Source: Methylobacterium nodulans ORS 2060
GTDB taxonomy: Bacteria; Pseudomonadota; Alphaproteobacteria; Rhizobiales; Beijerinckiaceae
Reading direction: 5' to 3'
Length of the DNA: 64,000 nt
NCBI RefSeq assembly: GCF_000022085.1
Contig: NC_011894.1
Coordinates: 4,145,001 to 4,209,000, forward strand
The notes under the pieces were generated by a model. That model was not told the DNA's origin, ran no database searches, and saw only the letters and a list, made by a program, of their open reading frames with translations. Position numbers and translations under genes: made by a program. This document shows, piece by piece, positions 17,119 through 30,927 of the stretch; positions within the stretch are counted from its first letter, which is position 1, and every line of letters begins with the position of its first letter.

Positions 17119-17889
17119 ATGGAATTACGAGAGATTTTGGAGCGGATAGAGCGCCGGCTGGAGGCCACCGGCCTGTCGGAGCGTGCCGCTTCGGAGAAGG
17201 CCGGAAAGCCCGACGCAATCCGCAATCTGCGCCGTGCTCTAGAGAAGGATGGCCGCCAAGGGGTCAGCACGGCGACACTGAATGCGCTCGCGCCGGTCCT
17301 GGGTACGACATCTGTCTGGCTCTTTGCCGGAGCAGGCCCTGAGGAGCCAGCCAAGGCGCCTAGCTCTGGATCAACCTCTATCTCTTCTGCAGCAGGCGGA
17401 GAAGAGATCGTCCAAGCGACACAGCCGGCGGTTCGCGTTTTATATGGCGGCTTTGTCGAGGCGGGATCTTACCGCGAGATTTCAGAATTCATAGATGTCC
17501 CGCCCGAAGACATCTTTCTTCCACCCGATAGCGAATACCCACGGGTGCAGCAGGTTGCCTTCGACGTACGCGGGGACTCAATGAATGCTCTCACGCCGCG
17601 ACCAATTCTGCGCGGCGATCGCGTTGTGGCTCTAGACTTTGAAGGGTTGCATGGTCGTGTTGCACTCCACACCGGAATGGTCGTGATTGTCCAGCAAAGC
17701 CGAGAAGGCGGGCACTTGGTAGAGCGCTCAGTGAAGCAACTGGAGGTCTATGAGGACCGGTACGAGTTTCACCCGCGCTCGACAGTGTCGCGCTATAAGC
17801 CGATCGTGGTTCCCCACAGCATGGAGGCTGACGATGGACGCGAAGTTCGGATACTGGCTTGGGCTCGGAGCGTGTTGAACAAGCTTTAA
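17119..17889 (+). CDS. CI/C2-type phage repressor, S24 peptidase family
   Basis: A 256-residue lysogeny repressor. The N-terminal helix-turn-helix covers about 1-70 (LSERAASEKAGKPDAIRNL). The C-terminal LexA-like domain has catalytic Ser154 in RGDSM and Lys206 in ERSVKQ. The probable self-cleavage site is Ala115-Gly116 in VEAGS. RecA-stimulated cleavage would induce the prophage. No ribosome site precedes the ATG and operator O3 fills that space, so a leaderless mRNA, as for lambda cI from PRM, is possible. The gene looks more A/T-rich than the flanking phage DNA. Confidence 0.9.
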   Translation: MELREILERIERRLEATGLSERAASEKAGKPDAIRNLRRALEKDGRQGVSTATLNALAPVLGTTSVWLFAGAGPEEPAKAPSSGSTSISSAAGGEEIVQATQPAVRVLYGGFVEAGSYREISEFIDVPPEDIFLPPDSEYPRVQQVAFDVRGDSMNALTPRPILRGDRVVALDFEGLHGRVALHTGMVVIVQQSREGGHLVERSVKQLEVYEDRYEFHPRSTVSRYKPIVVPHSMEADDGREVRILAWARSVLNKL

Positions 17890-19385: not shown

Positions 19386-20309
19386 ATGGCTCAGACCGCC
19401 GTCATCACCCCTGCCGATCCCTTCGCCTGGCACGCCGCGGCCCTGCGCAACGAGGCCTGGCCCCTGGAGCCGGGCAGGGCCCCCTGCGGCTTCTTCCGCC
19501 TTCAGCGGCGCGACGGCTCATTCGAGCCGGTCGCGGTGTGGCCCGAGGAGGACGGCGTCCTCTGGGCCAAGATCGGCGAAAAGGCCCCGCAGTGCCTTGC
19601 CGGCCATGCCGAAGAGGAGTTCTGCGAGCGCGTCATCGCGCGCTGCTGGCGCTCACCGATTCCCGAGCCGCTCTACTGGGCAGTGTGCGAGGGCGCGCCC
19701 TGGCCAGACCTGCCGCCGACGGCGCCGGCCGATTACGCCAACCTGCCGGGCGACGCCTTCGAGGCGCTGCGCATCGAGATCGAGAGCGAGCGCGACGAGA
19801 TCGAGCGCTGGCTGAAGGACGATCCGATCCAGGACCAAACCGCCTGCGACCGGGCCGCGAACTGGGCCTCGCGCCTTGCCGATCTGGAGAAGAAGGCGGG
19901 CAGCCTGCGCGTCGAGGAGAAGCGCGCGCACGATGAAGCCGCCAAGGCGGTGCAGGCGAAGTGGAAGCCGCTGGAGGACCTCGCCGCCAGCCTGAAGCGC
20001 CGGCTGAAGGAGGCGCAGTTGCCGTTCCAGCAGGAGCAGCGGCGCCGCGAGGCCGAGGCCCGGGCCGCAGCGGCCCAGGCCGGCGAGGCGGTGCGGCTCG
20101 CCAAGGCAACGGGTGCGGGCACGGTCGGCCGCCGCTCCAGCCTGCGCACGACCTACCGTGCCGAGATCGAGGACTTCGACGCCGCGCTCGCGGCGCTGAG
20201 GGACAACCCCGAGCTCCGCCAGCTCGTGCAGCGCCTCGCCGACAAGGTTGCGCGCACCGGTGCCACGCTGCCCGGTACCCGCTCCGTCCCCATCCAGTCC
20301 GTCGCCTGA
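19386..20309 (+). CDS. RecT-associated phage protein with coiled coil
   Basis: A 307-residue protein. The first 130 residues hold a Trp-rich domain (FFRLQRRDGSFEPVAVWPEEDG, EPLYWAVCEGAPWPD). From about 150 to 245 a long charged coiled coil occurs (IESERDEIERWLKDD, EEKRAHDEAAKAVQAKW). The C-terminal part resembles proteins encoded just before recT in other phages. It starts 5 bases after the previous stop and ends 9 bases before the recT-like gene. A role in recombination is inferred from position. Confidence 0.65.
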   Translation: MAQTAVITPADPFAWHAAALRNEAWPLEPGRAPCGFFRLQRRDGSFEPVAVWPEEDGVLWAKIGEKAPQCLAGHAEEEFCERVIARCWRSPIPEPLYWAVCEGAPWPDLPPTAPADYANLPGDAFEALRIEIESERDEIERWLKDDPIQDQTACDRAANWASRLADLEKKAGSLRVEEKRAHDEAAKAVQAKWKPLEDLAASLKRRLKEAQLPFQQEQRRREAEARAAAAQAGEAVRLAKATGAGTVGRRSSLRTTYRAEIEDFDAALAALRDNPELRQLVQRLADKVARTGATLPGTRSVPIQSVA

Positions 20310-20318
20310 GGACGCCCC

Positions 20319-21416
20319 ATGAACGCTCTTGTTCCGCACGACCCTGCCGCGCAGCCGACGCGCATGATGCTGGCGCAGACCGGCATCTTCTCGGATCCCG
20401 ACAAGTTCACGCAGGCCAACCGGGTCGCAAAGGTCTTCGCGGACTCACAGCTCGTCCCGGCGCACTTCCGCGGGAAGATCGCGGATTGCCTGATTGCATT
20501 GAACATTGCGGATCGGATGCAAGAAGATCCGCTCGTTGTGTTCCAGAACCTTGCGATCGTAAGCGGGCGCCCGTGCTGGGCCACGCAATACATGATCGGT
20601 CGCGCCAACAAGTCCGGGGTGTTCCGGGGGCGCATCACCTGGAAATCCGAAGGCCAGGACGAGGGGCTCACGGTCACCGCGCTCGCGGCACTGGCGGACA
20701 CCGGCGAGGTCGTCTCCGTCGCGGTCAGCATGGCGATGGCGAAGGCGGACGGCTGGACCAAGAACCCGAAGTACACCTCCATGCCCGAGCACATGCTGCG
20801 CTGGCGCTCGGCCGCGATGCTGGTCCGGCTCTACGCGCCGGAGGTGATGCTCGGGATCCCGACCGTCGAGGAGGTCGAGACCCCGGCGCCGGTCGCGCCG
20901 ATGCGCGACGTCACCCCTCCGTCGCAGCAGGTGCGCAGCGGCCCGGCACCGAGCGGCCCACCGCGGCGACTGACGGCGCCCACGCCTCAGCCGGAGCCCG
21001 CGCCCGGGCCGGCGAACGATGCGGCGGCCGAGCAGTCCGGGGAAGCCGGCGGGGAGGCCGATGTCGAGGCGCTCGTTGTCCAGGCCGAAGAGGCCGCGGC
21101 GGTCGCGCGCTCGCCGGAAGATCTCGACGAGGCCTTCGCAGCCTTGGAGGGCGTCCGGCTGAACGACGGCCAGGCCGAGCGGACGCAGAAGGCGCGCGAG
21201 GCGGCCGAGCTGCGGCTGATCCGCGAGATGCCGGCCGACACCCGCGACCTCGACGCAGAGGACGAGCCGGTCGATCCGCAGGACGAGGATTTCCAGCGCG
21301 GCGTGACCGCCAAGAAGCGCGGCCACACGAAGTGCCTCAACCAGGGCATCGTGTCCGACCCCGAGCGGATGCGCCGCTGGAAGGCTGGCTTCGACTCCGT
21401 CGAGGCGGAGGCCTGA
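20319..21416 (+). CDS. recT: RecT-family single-strand annealing protein
   Basis: A 365-residue protein. The N-terminal 185 residues carry the RecT/Bet features: YMIGRANKSGVFRGRITW, then KADGWTKNPKYTSMPEHMLRW and LVRLYAPEVMLGIPT. Annealing proteins of this kind pair complementary single strands in phage recombination. The C-terminal half is acidic and Pro/Glu-rich, perhaps for partner binding. No RecE or lambda-exo-like exonuclease is visible nearby. The VRR-NUC protein in the other unit is the only recombination nuclease candidate here. Confidence 0.82.
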   Translation: MNALVPHDPAAQPTRMMLAQTGIFSDPDKFTQANRVAKVFADSQLVPAHFRGKIADCLIALNIADRMQEDPLVVFQNLAIVSGRPCWATQYMIGRANKSGVFRGRITWKSEGQDEGLTVTALAALADTGEVVSVAVSMAMAKADGWTKNPKYTSMPEHMLRWRSAAMLVRLYAPEVMLGIPTVEEVETPAPVAPMRDVTPPSQQVRSGPAPSGPPRRLTAPTPQPEPAPGPANDAAAEQSGEAGGEADVEALVVQAEEAAAVARSPEDLDEAFAALEGVRLNDGQAERTQKAREAAELRLIREMPADTRDLDAEDEPVDPQDEDFQRGVTAKKRGHTKCLNQGIVSDPERMRRWKAGFDSVEAEA

Positions 21417-23231: not shown

Positions 23232-23614
23232 TGACCCGCGAGCGCCTCCCGAACCGCCGCGAGCACGAGGTCTTCGACTTCGTGTTCTCCCGCGGCCCGC
23301 ACGATCCGGTCGGCACCCGCTACACCGCCGGCCTCGGCCGGGCCGCTCCCGGCGCGCCCGTCACCGAGATCTTTCTCGACTGCCACAAGCTGGCATCCGC
23401 GATGACCGACGACGCGCGCGACATCGCCGTCATCCTGTCGATCGCGCTCCAGCACGGCGTGCCGCTGGCGCCGATCCGCGCCGCGCTGACGAAGCTGGAG
23501 AGCGGCGAGCCGGCGGGCCTCGCCGGCCGGCTCCCGGTCGAGATCGAGGCGCGGGCGCCGGAAGCGTTCGATCCGCGGCCGGCCGCGGATCAGGCAGGGG
23601 AGGGCGCGCGCTGA
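23231..23614 (+). CDS. TSCPD/NrdJb-like phage protein
   Basis: 127 residues. VFDFVFSRGPHDP, VTEIFLDCHKLASAM and DIAVILSIALQHGVPL resemble the TSCPD domain of short NrdJb-type proteins found in phages and vitamin B12-dependent ribonucleotide reductases. The usual form has a Gly/Ser-rich stretch where this has DCHKLASAM. A metal- or nucleotide-linked role is possible, but no reductase gene is in the window. Confidence 0.55.
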   Translation: MTRERLPNRREHEVFDFVFSRGPHDPVGTRYTAGLGRAAPGAPVTEIFLDCHKLASAMTDDARDIAVILSIALQHGVPLAPIRAALTKLESGEPAGLAGRLPVEIEARAPEAFDPRPAADQAGEGAR

Positions 23615-24066
23615 TGGTCGCCTACAACTTCAAGCCGCGCTTCGTCGAGCCGATCGCCCTCGGCGCCAAGGCGCAGACGATCCGCGCGCACCGCGGCATC
23701 ACCAACCAGGGCCGCCACGCCCGGCCCGGCGAGCCGCTGCAGCTCTACACCGGCATGCGGACCCGCCACTGCAAGCTGATCGGCCGGACCACCTGCGAGA
23801 GCGTCGATCGGATCGTCCTGACCCTGCCCAGCCTCGCGCAGCGCCCGTCCGTGATCCTGACGAACAGCGCCGGCACGGTGATCGAGGACACCGACGATCC
23901 GGGCAAGCTGGACGCTTTTGCCAGGCGGGACGGATTCCGCGATTTCGACGACATGGCCGCGTTCTGGCGCGCGGAGCACCCGGACGTGTGGGTGTTCTCC
24001 GGAGTCGTGATCCGCTGGCCGCCCTTCCAGAACCTCGACGCCCTCGACCCAGCGAGGGCCGCATGA
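23614..24066 (+). CDS. ASCH-domain protein
   Basis: 150 residues. AYNFKPRFVEPIALGAKAQTIR near the start and PGEPLQLYTGMRT are typical of ASCH proteins, a PUA-like RNA- or nucleotide-binding fold common in phages. Related phage proteins are thought to sense or process modified nucleosides. The ATG overlaps the upstream TGA. The next ATG (24063) opens a frame that runs antisense to a membrane-protein gene and may be the stub of an interrupted gene. Confidence 0.8.
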   Translation: MVAYNFKPRFVEPIALGAKAQTIRAHRGITNQGRHARPGEPLQLYTGMRTRHCKLIGRTTCESVDRIVLTLPSLAQRPSVILTNSAGTVIEDTDDPGKLDAFARRDGFRDFDDMAAFWRAEHPDVWVFSGVVIRWPPFQNLDALDPARAA

Positions 24067-24121
24067 GCAGCCCTCTCGTGATCGACAGTTACGCGGTCAG
24101 GGCCGAACTCGGCCCCACCCC

Positions 24122-24358
24122 TCACAACACTGCGGCTGCCCCGGGGGGCGGGAGAAGTGCATCCACTGCCATGCTTCGGATGACTTGGTTCTGCACACTG
24201 GCGACTGTCAGTATCGCCAGGATCAGAAGCATGGCGATGCCCATAAGAAAAGGCGTGATCCGGTCCGCATACTGGCGGGACATCTGCAAGATGGCGCATC
24301 CAAGTGTGAAGATCGCCGCCGATGCAAGCGGCAGGGCGAGCGACTCCAGCAACTCCAT
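24122..24358 (-). CDS. Two-helix membrane protein, opposite-strand moron candidate 1
   Basis: 78 residues with a perfect GGAGG five bases before the ATG. Two membrane helices are predicted, LALPLASAAIFTLGCAIL near the start and FLMGIAMLLILAILTVASV in the middle. It is transcribed against the surrounding rightward unit and lies between the ASCH and methylase genes. A small membrane protein in this setting suggests a superinfection-exclusion or lysogenic-conversion role, but this is only context. Confidence 0.65.
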   Translation of the reverse strand: MELLESLALPLASAAIFTLGCAILQMSRQYADRITPFLMGIAMLLILAILTVASVQNQVIRSMAVDALLPPPGAAAVL

Positions 24359-24445
24359 GGGGTCCTCCGACGCTATGCACTGCAGCGGATGTAGGTGCAG
24401 TCACGGCACATCGCACTATTCTGCGACGCACGGAGGCGTGATCCC

Positions 24446-25349
24446 ATGACCTCCGCCGCCCTTGCGCCCACGTCCGAGCCGCCGCGTCCCGTCCTGCGCT
24501 GGCACAGCGGCAAGTGGCGCCTCGCCCCCTGGATCGTCCGGCACTTCGCGCCCCACCGCCTCTACACCGAGGCGTTCGGCGGCGCCGCCAGCGTCCTGCT
24601 GCGCAAGCCGCGCTCCTACGCCGAGATCTACAACGACCTCGACGACGACGTGGTGAACTTGTTTCAGGTGCTGCGGTCTGATCGCGCGCCGGAGCTGATC
24701 GCGGCTCTGCGGGCGACCCCCTTCGCTCGCGCGGAGTTCGAGCAGGCCTACGAGATCTCGAACGATCGGGTCGAGGAGGCTCGACGGCTCATCGTGCGGT
24801 CGTTCATGGGCTTCGGATCGAACGGCCATAACCGGCGGGCACCGACGGGCTTCCGGTCGAATGGCTTCCGATGCGGCACGACCCCGGCTCAAGATTGGGC
24901 CGGACTGCCCGACGCGCTGGGCCTCGTGATCGAGCGGCTGCGCGGCGTTGTGATCGAGCACCGCGACGCGGCCGAGGTCCTGGCCCAGCACGACAGCCCA
25001 GAGAGCCTGCACTACGTCGATCCGCCGTATCTGCCGGAGACGAGGTCTCTCCGGAACCCGTACGACATCAAGCATCGCGGTGGCATGTACGCTCACGAGC
25101 TGACGGCCGCCGACCACGCGCGCCTCCTCGACGCGTTGTGCGGCCTGAAGGGCATGGTGGTGCTCTCCGGCTACCCGTCGCCGGTCTATGACGCCGCGCT
25201 GCCGGGCTGGACGCGGGTCGAGCGCGCCGCCCATGCCGACGGCGCCCGGGCGCGCACCGAGGTGCTGTGGATCAACCCGCGCGGCCGCCCGCCTCTCCGC
25301 CTTCGGCAGCGTGCTCGCCCAGGCGCAGCTCTTCGAGGTGCCGGCATGA
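24446..25349 (+). pseudogene. Dam-type (D12) DNA adenine methylase with a frame disruption near its end
   Basis: The first 278 residues are a D12-class N6-adenine methylase: LRWHSGKWRLAPWI (SAM motif I region), TEAFGGAASVLL and the catalytic YVDPPY. After LWINP the frame is lost at 25280. Removing one base there restores AAARLSAFGSVLAQAQLFEV and a stop at 25347-25349. Read as given, the frame runs on antisense to the next gene as far as 26038. The catalytic core is intact, so a sequencing error, a recent mutation or a still active enzyme are all possible. The start is ATG 24446 with GGAGG upstream. Confidence 0.82.
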
Positions 25350-25369
25350 TTATTCAGCTAGTGAAAGGG

Positions 25370-25891
25370 TCAAACCTGGAGGTCATTTTCTATCTGTCGC
25401 ACGAGTTGTCTCACGATCTCGCGCCGGGTCGCAAGGTTTTGGAGCAAATTCTCAGAATAAGTGCCGCTCTGGATTCGGGCCAACGCATCTTCAAGAATGG
25501 ACCTGCATTCGATCATTTGCCGATGCATTTCAAGGGCTGCTCTTGTTGCAGCGCCTCTCGTCTTTCCGGACGAGAGAAGCGACCATATGAGATTGGCAAG
25601 AGATGTGAAATGAGGCGCCTGCCGCCGCAATGCGTATTCTCGGCCAGAAGTTACCGCCATTTCGTCACAAGCCAGCTCAAGCATCTGAGCCGCCTCATTG
25701 CAGACCGCGAGCAAGCCTCTGTGAAATTCAACATCGGAATAATTTTGCTGAGATCTCTGGAGTTTTTCGCTTCGTTTCGCTTGTTTGTCGCCGACGTAAA
25801 TTGCTACCACAAGGGCGAGAAGACTTCCTATTGCTTGAACCCATGCGGGGGCATTTGCACTCCCAAGTGTTTCAGAAACGATGCTCACCAT
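25370..25891 (-). CDS. Membrane-anchored coiled-coil protein, moron candidate 2
   Basis: 173 residues. One N-terminal membrane helix (WVQAIGSLLALVVAIYVG, about 17-35) is followed by a basic stop-transfer stretch (KQAKRSEKLQRS) and a helical cytoplasmic part. The DNA looks clearly more A/T-rich than its neighbours, and it is transcribed against the unit. It lies between the methylase end and the 26-kb gene. The architecture resembles small single-helix proteins found as accessory genes in prophages; no family is recognised. Confidence 0.65.
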   Translation of the reverse strand: MVSIVSETLGSANAPAWVQAIGSLLALVVAIYVGDKQAKRSEKLQRSQQNYSDVEFHRGLLAVCNEAAQMLELACDEMAVTSGREYALRRQAPHFTSLANLIWSLLSSGKTRGAATRAALEMHRQMIECRSILEDALARIQSGTYSENLLQNLATRREIVRQLVRQIENDLQV

Positions 25892-26120
25892 AGCCGCCTG
25901 CGTTTATTTCTGGGGCCTGCAGGAGAAGCCGACAACGCCGGCGCCTGCAAGCGATATCCACAACTAGTCGGGCGACAGACGACTTTCATTTCGGCCCGCG
26001 TTCCCGTTCGCCCCTCTATGGCTGGAGGTCGGCCATGACCTCCGCCCGCCTCACGGACCTGTGCGCAGAGGGCGCAAGCCGACCGGCGACGTGCCGCTCG
26101 ATGCCGTCTTTCCGGGCGGC

Positions 26121-26486
26121 TCAACCTAATCGCTGCGGGTGTGAGGTGGCGATGTCGGCTCCATTTCTCACCCACATCAAGGTCAGTGACCACGCTTTTC
26201 TCAAGCGGCTGCCGAAGGATGCTCGGCGTTTCATCAGTCGCAGCGTGCTTGCTTCGGTTGATGTGCTGCGCGTAATCTGTTCTTCATCTACAGCCAACCA
26301 CAGACCTACAGGCGCGCTGGCTCCATCAAAGCTGATAAAGAAATGTTCGAATTTTCTCTGCGGCTCTCCTTCTGAGTGTATGAGTGGAAGATTCTTCTCA
26401 GAGGCAGTAACCCGACCGAAGAACGTAACACCGTTCATGATCAGAATTGCGCATGAGGCTTCGTCGTCGCGACCCATCATGGTCAT
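26121..26486 (-). CDS. Opposite-strand protein of unknown function, moron candidate 3
   Basis: About 121 residues from the ATG at 26486; ATGs at 26480 and 26477 or a GTG at 26540 are alternatives. A beta-rich core (ASCAILIMNGVTFFGRVTASE, FEHFFISFDGASAPVGLWLAVDEE) is followed by a basic tail. The A/T-rich composition and orientation set it apart from the rightward genes. A short plus-strand stub (from 26035) and a tail (to about 26662) flank it, perhaps parts of a gene it interrupted. Confidence 0.55.
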   Translation of the reverse strand: MTMMGRDDEASCAILIMNGVTFFGRVTASEKNLPLIHSEGEPQRKFEHFFISFDGASAPVGLWLAVDEEQITRSTSTEASTLRLMKRRASFGSRLRKAWSLTLMWVRNGADIATSHPQRLG

Positions 26487-26665
26487 CCCCCCAGGATGTA
26501 GCCGCACCGACAACGTTTCCGGTTGCAGGCCGTGCCACACAATCAGGGGTTTTGATTAACGTAGCCTTGCCCGGAGAAGAAACGTCGGCGGAAGCACTTA
26601 GCGGCCTCTCCCGCCTCACCCCGCCCTCAGGGCGCACCGATCCCTCATCCGCAGGAGTCTGACCA

Positions 26666-27130
26666 GTGTCCCGTCGCATCTACGTCGCTTCGTCCTGGCG
26701 CAACCCGAAGCAGCCGGCGGTCGTCTCCGCGCTGCGTGAGGCGGGCCACGAGGTCTACGACTTCCGCAACCCCTTCAATGGCGTGCCGGGATTCGCGTGG
26801 TCGGAGATCGACCCGAATTGGGAGGCATGGTCGGCCGCCGAGTACCGGCGCCTGCTGACCTCGCATCCGATCGCCGCCCGCGGCTTTGTCAGCGATTTGC
26901 GCGGCATGCAGTGGGCCGACACCTGCGTCCTCGTCCTGCCGTGCGGGCGCAGCGCGCACCTGGAGGCCGGCTGGTTCTGCGGCGCCGGCAAGCGCTGCCT
27001 GATCCTGACCCAGGATGGCGAGGAGCCCGAGCTGATGGCGCTCCTCGCCACCGACATCTGCATCTCGCTCGAGGAGGTGCTGCAGCGGCTCGCGGGCAGT
27101 CCGGGCCCGCTCGCCATGGCTGCGGAGTGA
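26666..27130 (+). CDS. Nucleoside 2-deoxyribosyltransferase-like protein
   Basis: 154 residues. RRIYVASSWRNPKQPAVVSAL at the start, ADTCVLVLPCGRSAHLEAGW and AGKRCLILTQDGEEPELM match the nucleoside deoxyribosyltransferase/DUF4406 fold used in phage nucleotide metabolism. The CGRSAHLEAGW stretch holds the usual active-site Glu. The start is GTG 26666 after GGAG. The chemistry may differ from true transferases, since many family members are uncharacterised. Confidence 0.82.
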   Translation: MSRRIYVASSWRNPKQPAVVSALREAGHEVYDFRNPFNGVPGFAWSEIDPNWEAWSAAEYRRLLTSHPIAARGFVSDLRGMQWADTCVLVLPCGRSAHLEAGWFCGAGKRCLILTQDGEEPELMALLATDICISLEEVLQRLAGSPGPLAMAAE

Positions 27131-27134
27131 GGCC

Positions 27135-27575
27135 ATGACGACCGAGACCCAAGCCGCGGCCGCCACCGGTCCCGCCTTCCCCCGCTTCGACGGTGCCGAT
27201 GTGTGGGTCACCCTCACCAACGAGGAGAAGGCCGAGATCGGCGCTATCGCGGTCGAGCTCGTCGTCACCCGGCGGCTGTGGCAGCGCGTCTATGAGGATG
27301 GGCTGAGCGACATCATCCAGCGCGCCACGGGCGCCGCGCTCCAGTTGCTGCCGCATCTCCTCGATCAGGCCGTGTCCGACGTGCTGCCGGACGGCGCCCT
27401 GGAGGCGGAGGACGGCGTCACACCGCGCGTCCCGTCGCTGCTTGGCGGCATCTGCCGCGACTGCGGCTGCACCCAGGAGGACGCCTGCCCTGGGGGCTGC
27501 GGCTGGGCCGGCGAGGACCAGTGCACCACCTGCGCGGCCGAGAACGCCCCCGCGGCGGGCCGCGCCGAGCTCTGA
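27135..27575 (+). CDS. Phage protein with C-terminal Cys-rich zinc motif
   Basis: 146 residues. The C-terminal part has CRDCGC, CPGGCGW and CTTC, six or more Cys fit for zinc binding. The N-terminal half is helical (EEKAEIGAIAVELVVTRRLW). It is 4 bases from the previous gene. Function unknown. Confidence 0.6.
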   Translation: MTTETQAAAATGPAFPRFDGADVWVTLTNEEKAEIGAIAVELVVTRRLWQRVYEDGLSDIIQRATGAALQLLPHLLDQAVSDVLPDGALEAEDGVTPRVPSLLGGICRDCGCTQEDACPGGCGWAGEDQCTTCAAENAPAAGRAEL

Positions 27576-27590
27576 CCCTGAGGCCGCCCC

Positions 27591-27824
27591 ATGGCTGAGT
27601 ACTGGCGAGACATCGCGACCGCACCGCAGGACCCGACCCGCCGCATCCTGGTGCGCGGCGGTAGGTGGGAGCGCGGCAATCAGGAGGTCATCCCGCAGGC
27701 CTTCCCGAGTCTGGTGACCTGGGATGGCGAGTGGGTCGTCTGCGACAATCTCGGACCGCGCTCGACCATCCGAGATCCTGTGGAGTGGGCGCCGCTACCG
27801 GAGGACGCGCGCCATGTCGGCTGA
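27591..27824 (+). CDS. DUF551-like small phage protein
   Basis: 77 residues. The start YWRDIATAPQDPTRRILVRGG and the end DPVEWAPLPED fit DUF551-type early phage proteins, which end in a Trp followed by a PLP-like stretch. It overlaps the start of the next gene by 11 bases. Confidence 0.6.
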   Translation: MAEYWRDIATAPQDPTRRILVRGGRWERGNQEVIPQAFPSLVTWDGEWVVCDNLGPRSTIRDPVEWAPLPEDARHVG

Positions 27825-28521
27825 CCGCAATCGGAACGCTGCGGTGGCGAAACTCGCCTCAGGCTGTGTAGAGCAAGCCTCCAACGACGGCGAACAAGAA
27901 GCCCGCCAGATAGAGGATGCTGTTGGCTCTATCAGAGCGGTCCTCTCGGCCTACGAAGCCGACGATCAACACAGTCGCGCCGGATGCAGCCACAAGTCCA
28001 CCGAACAGGGTCACCGCAAAATCCTCTTCCCGTGTCCGGGGGAGCCGCATGGCTATGGCACAGCCGTCGCACCATCAAGCCCGGCCTATCCTGCTGACCC
28101 CGCCCGAGCCACCTACGAAGCCCGGTTCGCCGGGTTCACGCTCGGCCCCCGCGGCGCCGCCCCGGCCTGGGATGACCTCGGCGGCGAGGCCCGAGAGGTC
28201 TGCCGCGCCGCCGCGGCGGCCGCCCGCGAGGGCACACTCGACCCGCGCGACGCCTTCACCGACTCGATGATCCTGTTTGCCGTCCGTTACTGCCTCGGGC
28301 GCCATAGCTATGCGCCTGGACTGTGTTGCGACTGGCTTCGCGAGCACTGGCCGCATCTTCGGCCCAAGGGGCGTGATCTGATCCTGCGCGATATCCGCGA
28401 GCACGTGGAGAGGCAGGAATCCCGGCCTCCTGAGAGCCGGGACGCCATCGCCGGCTGGGAGATCGACCTCCAGATCTGGAAGAGCTTTCTCACCTGGGCG
28501 GAGGCCGCCGATGGCCGATAG
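27814..28521 (+). CDS. Phage protein with an opposite-strand gene embedded in its N-terminal half
   Basis: 235 residues if read from the coupled ATG at 27814. The C-terminal 130 residues are convincing (ATYEARFAGFTLGPRG, MILFAVRYCLGRHSYAPG, CCDWLREHWPHLRPKG). Residues 16-79 are antisense to a membrane-protein gene and have random composition, so that stretch may be an in-frame insertion. No other good start exists between 28050 and the conserved part. The end overlaps the next gene. Confidence 0.6.
   Translation: MSADRNRNAAVAKLASGCVEQASNDGEQEARQIEDAVGSIRAVLSAYEADDQHSRAGCSHKSTEQGHRKILFPCPGEPHGYGTAVAPSSPAYPADPARATYEARFAGFTLGPRGAAPAWDDLGGEAREVCRAAAAAAREGTLDPRDAFTDSMILFAVRYCLGRHSYAPGLCCDWLREHWPHLRPKGRDLILRDIREHVERQESRPPESRDAIAGWEIDLQIWKSFLTWAEAADGR
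27859..28050 (-). CDS. Two-helix membrane protein, moron candidate 4
   Basis: 63 residues from ATG 28050, or 51 from the GTG at 28014, which has GAGG upstream and may be the real start. Helices are LFGGLVAASGATVLIVGFVG and LYLAGFLFAVVGGLLYTA, joined by a charged loop (REDRSDRANS). It is embedded antisense within a rightward gene. Layout and size resemble moron candidate 1. Function unknown. Confidence 0.6.
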   Translation of the reverse strand: MRLPRTREEDFAVTLFGGLVAASGATVLIVGFVGREDRSDRANSILYLAGFLFAVVGGLLYTA

Positions 28522-28693
28522 CCCCTTCAGCACCGCCGACGGCTTCTGGTGCGATGAGTGCCAGAACCTCGGCACGACCGAGTGCCTGTGCGGCGGGGAT
28601 CTCTGTGTCTGCGACGCCTACGGCGAGCTGCCGTGCCCAAAGTGCAGCGGCCAGCTGTGGAGCATGGCCGACGATCGGGAGGAGGGGCCGTGA
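28511..28693 (+). CDS. Small Cys-rich zinc-binding phage protein
   Basis: 60 residues with CDEC, CLCGGDLCVC and CPKC, enough Cys for two zinc sites. It overlaps the upstream gene by 11 bases and the downstream GTG by 4 bases. Function unknown. Confidence 0.65.
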   Translation: MADSPFSTADGFWCDECQNLGTTECLCGGDLCVCDAYGELPCPKCSGQLWSMADDREEGP

Positions 28694-29151
28694 GCACCTT
28701 CGACACCATCCTGTTCGGCCTGATCGCGCTCGCCACCCTGTTCGCCTTCACGCGCTACGGCTGGCGGGCCGTGCACTGGCTGGGCTGTGGCATTGCCCTG
28801 ATCGGGCTCGCACTGGCGAACTTAGGACGCGGAAGGGGGAGGGGGAGGGAGACAATGAGACCAGGCGCTCTGACGGAGGACGAGGCCGATGCGATCTACA
28901 CCGCCCTGGTCGAGGAGGCTGGGGCACCTGACGACGAGTACGATCGCGAGATCTTCGTGCGCTCCGCAGCCGGCGTGCTGCCGCTGGAATGGCGCTTCCA
29001 GGGGCGGCTCGGGTTCGGCGGCAAGCTGTACTTCGACGGGGAGCGGCCGCCGCGTGTCGATTGCTATCCGCAGGATCGGAACGACGAGCGCCAGGCGATC
29101 ATCGCCCGCACCAACGAGCGGCTCACTGTACTGGAGATCCTCCGTGCGTGA
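28690..29151 (+). CDS. Membrane-helix segment fused to a small phage protein
   Basis: 153 residues from GTG 28690. Residues 1-48 have two hydrophobic stretches (LFGLIALATLFAFTRYG and VHWLGCGIALIGLALANL) and are duplicated as a separate gene at 29212. After an RG-rich joint the frame continues into MRPGALTEDEADAIYTALVEE, which has its own ATG (28855) and a GGGAGGG ribosome site. The cell may therefore make a fusion, a separate 98-residue protein, or both. Function unknown. Confidence 0.55.
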   Translation: MSTFDTILFGLIALATLFAFTRYGWRAVHWLGCGIALIGLALANLGRGRGRGRETMRPGALTEDEADAIYTALVEEAGAPDDEYDREIFVRSAAGVLPLEWRFQGRLGFGGKLYFDGERPPRVDCYPQDRNDERQAIIARTNERLTVLEILRA

Positions 29152-29215
29152 GTTCGTGCACATCGCGCTCGGGGCGCCGCTCGTGGTGTGGCGCAAGGGG
29201 GAGGCCGGCCGGTGA
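29144..29215 (+). CDS. Possible 23-residue peptide
   Basis: GTG 29144 overlaps the upstream stop and the frame ends at a TGA overlapping the next GTG. The sequence REFVHIALGAPLVVWRKG is hydrophobic. It fills the space between two coupled genes, but shortness limits support. Confidence 0.3.
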   Translation: MREFVHIALGAPLVVWRKGEAGR

Positions 29216-29373
29216 GCACCTTCGACACCATCCCGCTCGGCCTGATCGCGCTCGCAGTCCTGTTCGCCTTCACGCGCTACGGCTGGCGCGCCGTGCACTG
29301 GCTGGGCTGCGGCATCGGATTGATTGGGCTCGCGCTGGCGAGTCTCGGACGTGACAGAGGGGAGGGGAGGTGA
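29212..29373 (+). CDS. Small two-helix membrane protein (second copy)
   Basis: 53 residues from GTG 29212. It is a near copy of residues 1-52 of the protein at 28690 (TFDTIPLGLIALAVLFAFTR, VHWLGCGIGLIGLALASLG). Here it stops on its own. The excisionase ATG follows three bases later. Confidence 0.55.
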   Translation: MSTFDTIPLGLIALAVLFAFTRYGWRAVHWLGCGIGLIGLALASLGRDRGEGR

Positions 29374-29375
29374 AC

Positions 29376-29801
29376 ATGCGCAGGGCAGGGCGCATTCCCG
29401 ACAGGGCCGACGTCGCGGACGACACGCCGCTCCGCCTCGACGACGCCGCAGCGCTTGCGTTCCCGGCTGGCTCTGGTGTGTCCGCGCGCAGCTTGCGGCG
29501 AGAGGGGCAGCGTGGTCGCCTGCGAATCTTCGAGGTCGCTGGCAAGCACTTCACCACCCTGGCCGATATCAGGCGGATGATCGAACAATGCCCCGTCCAG
29601 CCAAAGGCGCGCGCCTCTATTACCGAAAATCACACGAGCGCTGGTTTGTCCGAGATTCCGGAGGCGTCGACTTCAGCACGGGCTGCCGCCATGGAGAGCG
29701 TGAGGCGGCTGAAAGAGCGTTGCAGGAATACCTCGCGCGCAAGCACAAGCCCGACTTCGGCCAAGGTGATCCCGCTCGGATCCTCATCGCCGACGTCTTG
29801 A
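29376..29801 (+). CDS. Excisionase-like DNA-binding protein overlapping the integrase gene
   Basis: 141 residues from ATG 29376 with GGAGG upstream. The first 75 residues (PLRLDDAAALAFPAGSGVS, SLRREGQRGRLRIFEVAGKH, LADIRRMIEQC) form a winged-helix excisionase-like domain. The rest is Ser/Thr-rich and overlaps the integrase start by about 210 bases in another frame. Long xis-int overlaps of this sort recur in Rhizobiales prophages. It should direct the integrase toward excision. Confidence 0.7.
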   Translation: MRRAGRIPDRADVADDTPLRLDDAAALAFPAGSGVSARSLRREGQRGRLRIFEVAGKHFTTLADIRRMIEQCPVQPKARASITENHTSAGLSEIPEASTSARAAAMESVRRLKERCRNTSRASTSPTSAKVIPLGSSSPTS

Positions 29802-30745
29802 GCCTCTACGCCGACGAGCGCGCCGCCGAGACGAAACGACCGGATGTGGTGTGGAGCGCGCTGCCACATTTGATCGACTTCTTCGACGGCCGGATGGTGG
29901 CACATGCCACACCGAACCTCTGCGCCGGCTATGTCCGCTGGCGGAGGGCGATGCCGCAGAAGCGCTTCAAGGATCCCGAGACGGCTCCGCGGGTCGGTAC
30001 GCAGACCGCCCGGCGCGAGCTCGAGGTGTTGGCCGCTGCGTTCGGCTACGCTCACAAGGAACACAAGCTCCTGTATCCCGTGGCCGTGACGCTACCGGAC
30101 AAGGCGCCCGCGCGCGATCGGTGGCTGACCCGGTCCGAGGCCGCGCGTCTGCTATGGGCTGCGCTCGGCTTCCGACGAGTCGGCACGCACCCGATCACCG
30201 GCCGAGAGATCTGGCGGCGGACGGGGGAGGCTCAGGGCAAGACGCGCCACGTCGCCCGCTTTATTCTCTTGGGCCTCTACACCGGCACGAGGCATGACGC
30301 GATCCTGCGCCTGAAGTGGCTGCCGAGTCCTATCGCGGGGTGGGTCGATCTGCGAGCCGGCATCCTGTATCGGCGCGGCACGGGGGAGGGGGAGAGCACG
30401 AAGCGCCGGACGCCCATCCCGCTGTCGCGCCGGCTCCTCGCCCACCTGACCCGCTGGCGATCGCAGAGCGTCGCCCACGTGGTCGAGTTCGAGGGGCTGC
30501 CGATCGCGAAGATGCGTCGGGGATGGCGCACTGCGCGAGAAGCGGCCGGCCTTGGGCCCGAGGTGACGCCCCACATCCTGCGCCACACCTTCGCAACCTG
30601 GGCTGTGCAGGGCGGGGCGCCGTTCGGCCTCGTCGCAGGCGCGCTCGGTACCACGGAAGCCATCGTGGCGAACGTGTATGGTCACCACGCGCCAGAGCAC
30701 CTGCGCGGCGTGGTCGAGACCGTGTCCGGCCGGCGCCGCTCGTGA
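29588..30745 (+). CDS. int: Prophage tyrosine integrase
   Basis: A 385-residue site-specific recombinase. Catalytic residues are Arg235 in LYTGTRHDAIL, His329 and Arg332 in HILRHTF and Tyr364 in NVYGHH. The N-terminal arm-binding and core-binding domains occupy about 1-175. The start is ATG 29588 (MPRPAKGARLYYRK). It ends 106 bases before the 3' end of tRNA-Val, which is the likely target of integration. Confidence 0.93.
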   Translation: MPRPAKGARLYYRKSHERWFVRDSGGVDFSTGCRHGEREAAERALQEYLARKHKPDFGQGDPARILIADVLSLYADERAAETKRPDVVWSALPHLIDFFDGRMVAHATPNLCAGYVRWRRAMPQKRFKDPETAPRVGTQTARRELEVLAAAFGYAHKEHKLLYPVAVTLPDKAPARDRWLTRSEAARLLWAALGFRRVGTHPITGREIWRRTGEAQGKTRHVARFILLGLYTGTRHDAILRLKWLPSPIAGWVDLRAGILYRRGTGEGESTKRRTPIPLSRRLLAHLTRWRSQSVAHVVEFEGLPIAKMRRGWRTAREAAGLGPEVTPHILRHTFATWAVQGGAPFGLVAGALGTTEAIVANVYGHHAPEHLRGVVETVSGRRRS

Positions 30746-30870
30746 ATCGAGCGTGGCTGTGGTGCAGCGCAGCAATTCTGGGTTTTTGGGAGGTATTTGG
30801 GAGCTGAGCCGTTCGCAGCTCGCCGGAAATCGCCTAAGTCCTTGAAGCCGTTGGTGGGCGGTGACGGGCT
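30746..30870. other. Probable prophage right attachment region
   Basis: The integrase gene ends beside the 3' end of tRNA-Val. Tyrosine integrases commonly use tRNA 3' ends as attachment cores. The core would lie around 30845-30870 (CCA end and T arm), and arm sites would lie in 30746-30850. The matching left copy is outside the window, so the exact core cannot be set. Confidence 0.6.
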
Positions 30871-30927
30871 CGAACCGCCGACCCTCTCGGTGTAAACGAG
30901 ATGCTCTACCAACTGAGCTAACCGCCC
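30852..30927 (-). tRNA. tRNA-Val (anticodon TAC)
   Basis: A 76-base cloverleaf on the minus strand. The acceptor stem GGGCGGT pairs with ACCGCCC, the D-loop reads GCTCAGTTGGTAGAGC, the anticodon loop is TTTACAC and the T arm GGTTCGAACCC. The CCA end is encoded. Its 3' end faces the prophage. Confidence 0.95.

Follow-up and report, generated by a model that had tools for sequence, protein, structure and literature searches.

Reverse-strand single-gene cassettes in the early operon of a Methylobacterium nodulans prophage as candidate lysogen-expressed morons

We analyzed a window of 64,000 nucleotides (nt) from Methylobacterium nodulans ORS 2060 (positions 4145001-4209000 of contig C7, NC_011894.1, in an 8.84-Mb genome of 8 contigs), which contains a prophage with four short genes, g24122, g25370, g26121 and g27859, on the minus strand within a rightward early operon. 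The left arm of the prophage runs leftward on the minus strand, from replication genes to terminase and capsid genes. The right arm runs rightward from a repressor-like gene through exonuclease, RecT-like and small genes and a dam-type methylase to an integrase adjoining a tRNA-Val, an arrangement that we take to resemble the pL operon of lambda. An initial annotation of this DNA had described the four as moron-like genes set against about 30 plus-strand genes. All four open frames were confirmed on the minus strand at the coordinates in Table 1, and we called 23 plus-strand genes from repressor to integrase. The four genes are separate insertions and not one cluster. That they are real genes, not random antisense frames, is supported, with g26121 the weakest case.

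The coding evidence differed among the four. Frame length was compared with 1000 dinucleotide shuffles of each interval, and a home-made codon score, which picks its own start, was compared with 400 shuffles per gene. A frame at least as long arose in 9 of 1000 shuffles for g25370 and in 110 for g26121 (119-amino-acid (aa) form), and in 438 and 283 for g24122 and g27859, respectively; on length alone, g25370 is the sole frame that beats chance. The codon score was reached by 0 of 400 shuffles for g24122 and 7 of 400 for g27859. It backs these two genes only, and homology supplies the remaining support. The A+T richness initially reported for g25370 and g26121 was borne out, and it extends to all four genes: G+C is 0.60 for g24122, 0.51 for g25370, 0.54 for g26121 (0.525 as the 119-aa form) and 0.60 for g27859, compared with a mean of 0.70 for the plus-strand genes. 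As had also been proposed, three of the products look like small membrane proteins, an assignment made from hydrophobic stretches judged by inspection, without a membrane predictor, and in g25370 also from a long N-terminal helix in an AlphaFold2 model. Database searches with the four reverse proteins returned no Pfam family above cut-off and no PHROG match of known function at E<=1; the best matches in PADLOC-DB 2.0.0 were at E 0.023 (g25370) and 0.077 (g24122), with none for g26121 and g27859.

Related early regions occur elsewhere in the same genome. A search of the genome with positions 24000-28100 gave 35 matches, from which 12 stretches were fetched; two of these (L019 and L020) were excluded for lack of a comparable early region. 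The remaining set of 11 early intervals (the window and L009-L018), with bounds set by us, was submitted to gene calling with the home-made score and then to clustering, with a filter of 150 nt for reverse genes. Because the caller drops frames overlapping higher-scoring ones, three of the window's four genes had to be added manually. At least 11 related, heavily mosaic prophage early regions, including that of the window, are thus present in one genome. Reverse genes above the filter were found in 9 of the 11 intervals, 26 in total, and their composition is foreign, with a mean G+C of 0.538 compared with 0.701 for 128 plus-strand genes (Mann-Whitney p 6e-14). The count of 26 includes an atypical pair, L012:10748 (G+C 0.72) and L017:7616 (0.66), either of which could be an ordinary gene or a calling error.

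In a visual inspection of 23 reverse genes, 16 ended against the truncated start of a plus-strand DNA-methyltransferase gene (9 dam-type and 7 dcm-type, at least one a weak resemblance). The stubbed or extended plus-strand neighbors mentioned in the initial annotation were seen at each window gene: a dcm-type start at g24122, a dam-type start at g26121, short starts at g25370 and g27859; in addition, g25370 is traversed by a frame-shifted dam tail. The dcm-type start belongs elsewhere to a full-length gene, L015:7706-8848 (PHROG DNA methyltransferase, E 1.4e-80), and the dam-type start, which we refer to as the LB element, begins a full dam-type gene at L016:8257-9201. LB is found in the genome in 14 copies with 0-1 mismatch and in 26 with up to 3, versus 2 for a reversed-pattern control. 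The right border of the cassette, the RB element, has 12 genome matches at E<=0.001, window copy included. Between these conserved borders the contents of a single slot vary: g26121 in the window, L013 and L014, genes of a reverse family that we call F0 in L010 and L012, plus-strand genes in L015 and L016, and about 85 bases of filler in L011. The g25370 insert (~25350-26034) is absent from L011, L012 and L016, where dam directly abuts an LB-type start. The C-terminal frame of the window dam differs from that of the L011 and L012 copies, and its open frame continues to 26038, through the g25370 cassette. The L012 dam copy carries an internal stop.

Table 1. Features of the prophage early operon in the window (positions count from the first letter of the window)
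Feature	Position	Strand	Basis or resemblance
g24122 (reverse cassette 1), membrane protein of 78 aa in a Methylobacterium family of small membrane proteins	24122..24358	-	homology
g25370 (reverse cassette 2), helical protein of 173 aa with membrane anchor and SANAPAWVQAIGS motif	25370..25891	-	
g26121, 119-aa protein without evident membrane helix, reverse cassette 3; GTG-start frame reaches 26540	26121..26480	-	
g27859, 63-aa membrane protein, reverse cassette 4	27859..28050	-	homology
Plus-strand stub MSSPLVIDSYA..., dcm-type methyltransferase start, convergent with g24122	24063..24121	+	resembles L015:7706-8848
Short plus start MIIQLVKG overlapping dam stop, convergent with g25370	25346..25369	+	
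LB element, MTSARLTDL-type dam-gene start, recurs at cassette borders	26035..26080	+	
RB element, right border of cassette, just before next plus-gene start	26602..26657	+	
Short plus start MSADRNRN..., convergent with g27859; gene calling extends frame to 28521	27814..27858	+	
dam-type N6-adenine methyltransferase	24446..25349	+	MethyltransfD12, E 1.9e-13
Phage repressor-like gene	17119..17889	+	phrog_4, E 2.5e-10
Phage exonuclease of operon	19386..20309	+	phrog_10477, E 1.8e-17
RecT-like single-strand annealing protein of operon	20319..21416	+	phrog_561, E 2.1e-66
Integrase, operon end, adjoining tRNA-Val	29720..30745	+	Phage_integrase, E 5.9e-9

F0 is the largest protein family of the 11-interval set, with 11 members of 74-83 aa, all of them reverse. 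An F0 profile identified 13 places in the own genome (one with a stop) and a single place, with a stop, in 247 relatives. The family occurs in L009, L010, L011, L012, L014, L016, L017, L105 and L106, and the F0 gene in L106 sits outside any recognisable prophage. In an alignment, identity of the F0 proteins to the first row is 20-31%, although some pairs exceed 90%, and fold comparison gave no significant match. In 7 of the 13 F0 upstream regions the F0 start codon lies exactly 77 nt from the LB start codon (for L016:9294, the start counted is the one agreeing with its homolog). Because this spacing recurs while the proteins are so divergent, we infer that the unit of exchange consists of the reverse gene, a divergent control region and the next plus-strand start. 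A spaced box, a pattern picked post hoc, was found upstream of F0 in 4 of the 13 regions (two of the four being near-identical copies) versus 10 of 4000 base shuffles of 8 of these regions. Two further reverse families were observed. In L009:5674-8718 (reverse-complement coordinates) an F0 gene and a member of family F32, encoding 83 aa and a membrane protein of ~180 aa, form a pair that occurs twice, both times reversed. F42, with proteins of 284-293 aa and 26% identity, lies beside methyltransferase genes at L012:7644-8525 and L013:8118-8972 (reverse-complement coordinates), and its L012 member has weak PADLOC matches to DruC (E 0.0013) and AbiEi (0.013).

The AlphaFold2 model of g25370 (mean predicted local distance difference test score, pLDDT, of 81.7) shows the long N-terminal helix followed by three helices, and fold searches with it gave no significant match. 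The sole PHROG match of g25370 below 0.01 is to phrog_33632, a phage protein family of 208 positions without an assigned function (E 0.0085, residues 8-48 only). The N-terminal membrane regions of the g25370 relatives L122 (6e-6), L114 (5e-4), L115 (0.017) and L123 (0.066) resemble the same family, and here too the similarity is confined to the N-terminus. A tblastn search of viral contigs placed this region of g25370 in 10 other loci at E ~1e-6, a value that refers to candidate stretches only. Scanning viral and genome contigs with a degenerate DNA pattern for the SANAPAWVQAIGS motif defined what we refer to as the NAPAWVQA class, with 20 viral loci in 12 protein groups (19 further contigs and 11 further groups besides the window). 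In 20 of 20 viral loci, g25370 included, the motif is followed by [IVL]-G-[SA] and a hydrophobic stretch, neither of which the pattern requires, and in 20 of 20 the gene is lower in G+C than its own locus.

Reverse orientation prevails in this class in viral contigs. Both flanking genes are on the opposite strand in 15 of the 19 viral loci with both nearest confident genes called (one side of L144 was uncalled), versus 8 of 210 triplets of other genes taken from 36 loci of both collections and 4 of 127 triplets with middle genes of 100-300 aa. In genome contigs the pattern matched 16 places. Judged by the residues after the motif, 11 of these were dropped as chance matches and five were kept as true, in Pseudorhodoferax (L156), Hydrogenophaga (L157), Pseudomonas panipatensis (L158), Janthinobacterium (L162) and Curvibacter (L169). 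Among larger neighbors in seven loci (at least 140 aa, picked by us and not always the nearest gene), 7 of 10 encode DNA methylases (3) or proteins resembling 3'-phosphoadenosine-5'-phosphosulfate (PAPS) reductase (4), in 6 of the 7 loci; the methylase neighbor of g25370 in the window is dam. The 20 residues after the motif have a mean identity of 33.1% (120 pairs). The remaining C-terminus is at 20.1% versus 19.5% for shuffled C-termini, so that similarity between types does not exceed that of shuffled sequence. From the names of the hosts, the class presumably belongs to alpha-, beta- and gammaproteobacteria. Among the literature titles listed we found none on a reverse membrane protein class with this motif.

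The other three genes have different relatives. For g24122 there is a second copy in the same genome (L019) with 63% identity and the frame kept. A protein search gave 8 matches at E<=0.1, two from the own genome and six from elsewhere, the latter all at E<=1e-12 and three of them from named Methylobacterium strains. At E<=1e-6, 65 of the 111 genomes of the genus, counting its own, contain the family, often as partial matches, with 5 matches in G036 and 7 in G359, where the surroundings show no evident phage genes by inspection. A small chromosomal gene encoding TYDRFVRDRSF... adjoins both a g24122 relative in G036 (L104) and the F0 gene of L106 in the window's genome, as if host chromosomes also have such cassette slots. 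The reverse homolog of g27859 in sister prophage L009 has 25 of 50 residues identical (50%). Homologs were found in 2 of the 111 genus genomes, the own genome included, and in the other, G342, the relative lies at a place without evident phage genes by inspection. Both g24122 and g27859 look like small membrane proteins with relatives elsewhere on Methylobacterium chromosomes. For g26121, an internal ATG (118-119 aa) is a likelier start than the GTG. This gene is intact in the window, L013 and L014 (94% and 85% identity), and the protein collection holds two entries only, both apparently from this genome; it was found only in these three prophages. The description of the four as a cluster is therefore misleading, since two have relatives at apparently non-phage chromosomal places, one was found only in prophages of its own genome and one is a member of a widespread class carried by phages. 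What stands of the initial interpretation is that these are moron-like insertions and real genes, as the homology shows (least so for g26121), rather than the random antisense frames it had set out as the alternative.

Additional features were noted along the operon. A Pfam search with the RecT-like protein returned zero matches at E<=0.001. Just before the integrase lies a tandem pair of one small membrane-protein start (MSTFDTI...) at 28690-29151 and 29212-29373. Within the tRNA-Val (30852-30927), the 40 bases at 30888-30927 are identical in two Synechococcus phages and could be a common attachment core.

In lambdoid and other temperate phages, morons are extra single genes between conserved phage genes and absent from relatives, and some code for membrane exclusion proteins. 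The window genes resemble them as single inserted genes of differing composition, and the clean presence and absence among related prophages (the g25370 insert is absent from L011, L012 and L016) agrees with the moron-like label given to them initially. They differ in being reversed and at truncated methyltransferase starts, with such reverse genes recurring in 9 of 11 sister prophages of one genome and no promoter or terminator recognised in consensus scans. The testable structural features of morons were found at the locus, promoter and terminator excepted. Known prophage defense genes provide a second comparison. Sbash 30/31, CarolAnn 43/44 and Butters 30/31 are described as prophage-mediated defense genes of actinobacteriophages with lysogenic expression (from a separate promoter in Sbash) and specific defense against unrelated phages (PMC6426596, PMC6426606, PMC7542560). 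They likewise encode small membrane proteins in the accessory region of a temperate phage. Those gene pairs are RexAB-like and include a DUF4747 partner, whereas the window genes are single; no cytoplasmic DUF4747-type partner was found among the four reverse and six plus-strand proteins scanned (23614-28521), and g25370 stands alone. SieA of P22 is reported to be a prophage-expressed inner-membrane protein that blocks superinfection by P22 and its relatives (PMC10883804). In contrast to SieA and SieB, g25370 has no Pfam match above cut-off and seems to combine a single membrane helix with a cytoplasmic portion that is helical.

We favor the reading, at a probability of about 0.55, that the reverse genes are morons that are active in the lysogen and shut off by antisense transcription of the early operon on induction, with g25370 a membrane-anchored exclusion protein. 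Single-gene cassettes would have entered the RecT-to-integrase early operon in opposition to its transcription, at slots that hold DNA-methyltransferase genes or other cassettes in sister prophages. Swapping between prophages would take place at the short conserved borders, dam- and dcm-type gene starts, probably by the phage's own RecT-type annealing protein; Rad52-like phage recombinases, including RecT types, are reported to promote mosaicism among phages and prophages that have diverged (PMC3945230). With the early operon shut in the lysogen, promoters of their own would drive the reverse genes. Upon induction, the early transcript would run antisense through them and turn them off, which would limit a phage-hostile function to the lysogen. 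The most likely job of g25370 would be the exclusion of other phages. Its conserved N-terminal anchor, motif plus helix, would carry a cytoplasmic helical part that varies between phages, as expected if proteins of this type recognise different invaders.

Several results weigh against this reading. In the region 23600-28700 we found no terminator-like site, versus 2.4 expected in shuffles, and two promoter-like sites, neither at the start of a reverse gene. This speaks against independent expression, although the counter-evidence is weak because these were consensus scans in which host promoters are unmodelled. Two sister intervals, L015 and L018, lack a reverse gene above the filter (the minus-strand calls of L015 are of 49 and 32 aa). 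The codon score was reached by 48 of 400 shuffles for g25370 and by 234 of 400 for g26121. Constraint on g26121 is weak, with ratios of nonsynonymous to synonymous substitution rates (dN/dS) of 0.42, 0.53 and 0.70 for its three pairs versus 0.12-0.27 for five plus-gene controls (F32 and F42 pairs were saturated), and its differences are not biased to third positions (positions 1, 2 and 3: 3, 6, 4 for L013 and 8, 12, 10 for L014). No second copy of g25370 was found in its own genome or in the 247 relatives searched, and the protein collection holds neither a homolog nor an entry for g25370 itself. Because loci were retrieved by NAPAWVQA, the invariance of this motif is built into the search. 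Exceptions to the orientation are L136, L143, L149 (the window) and L154, the window being so counted because one of its nearest called neighbors is the reverse g24122, although the operon genes on both sides are opposite. Six of the 15 conforming loci are near-identical members of one group; counted by group, conforming loci occur in 9 of 12. In the five kept bacterial loci, both flanks are opposite only in L158 (1 of 1 visible in L162, 1 of 2 in L157, 0 of 1 in L156 and 0 of 2 in L169). Most viral contigs thus obey the orientation rule, which for chromosomes is not established.

The same genes could instead be morons that interact with the host and have no anti-phage role, either lysogen-expressed membrane or cytoplasmic proteins that alter host physiology or selfish passengers from the host gene pool. 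The multiple matches of the g24122 family in G036 and G359, in settings that by inspection lack evident phage genes, the similar setting of the g27859 relative and the F0 gene of L106 outside a recognisable prophage are all consistent with such an origin. We consider this somewhat unlikely overall, as it leaves the g25370 class unexplained: a class that is reversed, near DNA-modification genes and in unrelated phage contigs. Alternatively, the reverse transcripts could matter more than the proteins, as antisense RNA or modulators that restrain the early operon. All of the genes are antisense to an operon that needs to stay shut, and an antisense RNA of prophage BTP1 is reported to mediate exclusion (PMC7067206). 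A regulatory role of this type appears improbable, since four F0 pairs (dN/dS 0.08-0.37) and, less strongly, the g24122 pair (0.50) show conservation and constraint of the frame, which indicates that the proteins are made and kept.

Decay alone would make the cassettes leftovers of insertions that broke methyltransferase genes, with accidental frames. The truncated plus-strand starts, the shifted C-terminal frame of the window dam and the internal stop in the L012 dam would fit, as would the weak constraint and poor codon score of g26121. Homologs with 20-63% identity in further prophages, in phage contigs or in different genomes nevertheless retain the frame, and 9 of 11 prophages keep reverse genes. 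Mere decay is largely refuted for g24122, g25370 and F0, whereas g26121 may still be such a leftover; as an explanation of the locus it is highly improbable.

A broader extension of the favored exclusion reading is that the NAPAWVQA proteins are an undescribed modular exclusion system of alpha-, beta- and gammaproteobacterial prophages, in which a constant anchor would act as effector, an exchanged helical part as sensor and the reverse orientation as an off-switch at induction. We regard this as speculative and rather doubtful. If it is true, methyltransferase slots would be general islands of defense and counter-defense, each occupied by a modification enzyme or by a reverse exclusion gene, and reverse orientation to an early operon together with low G+C would be a simple signature of lysogen-expressed exclusion genes. 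The NAPAWVQA signature would then provide a ready list of candidates and a testable split between constant anchor and variable sensor. The sister prophages of this one genome are a natural set for the study of module exchange, and a natural experiment on the trading of methyltransferases for reverse accessory genes.

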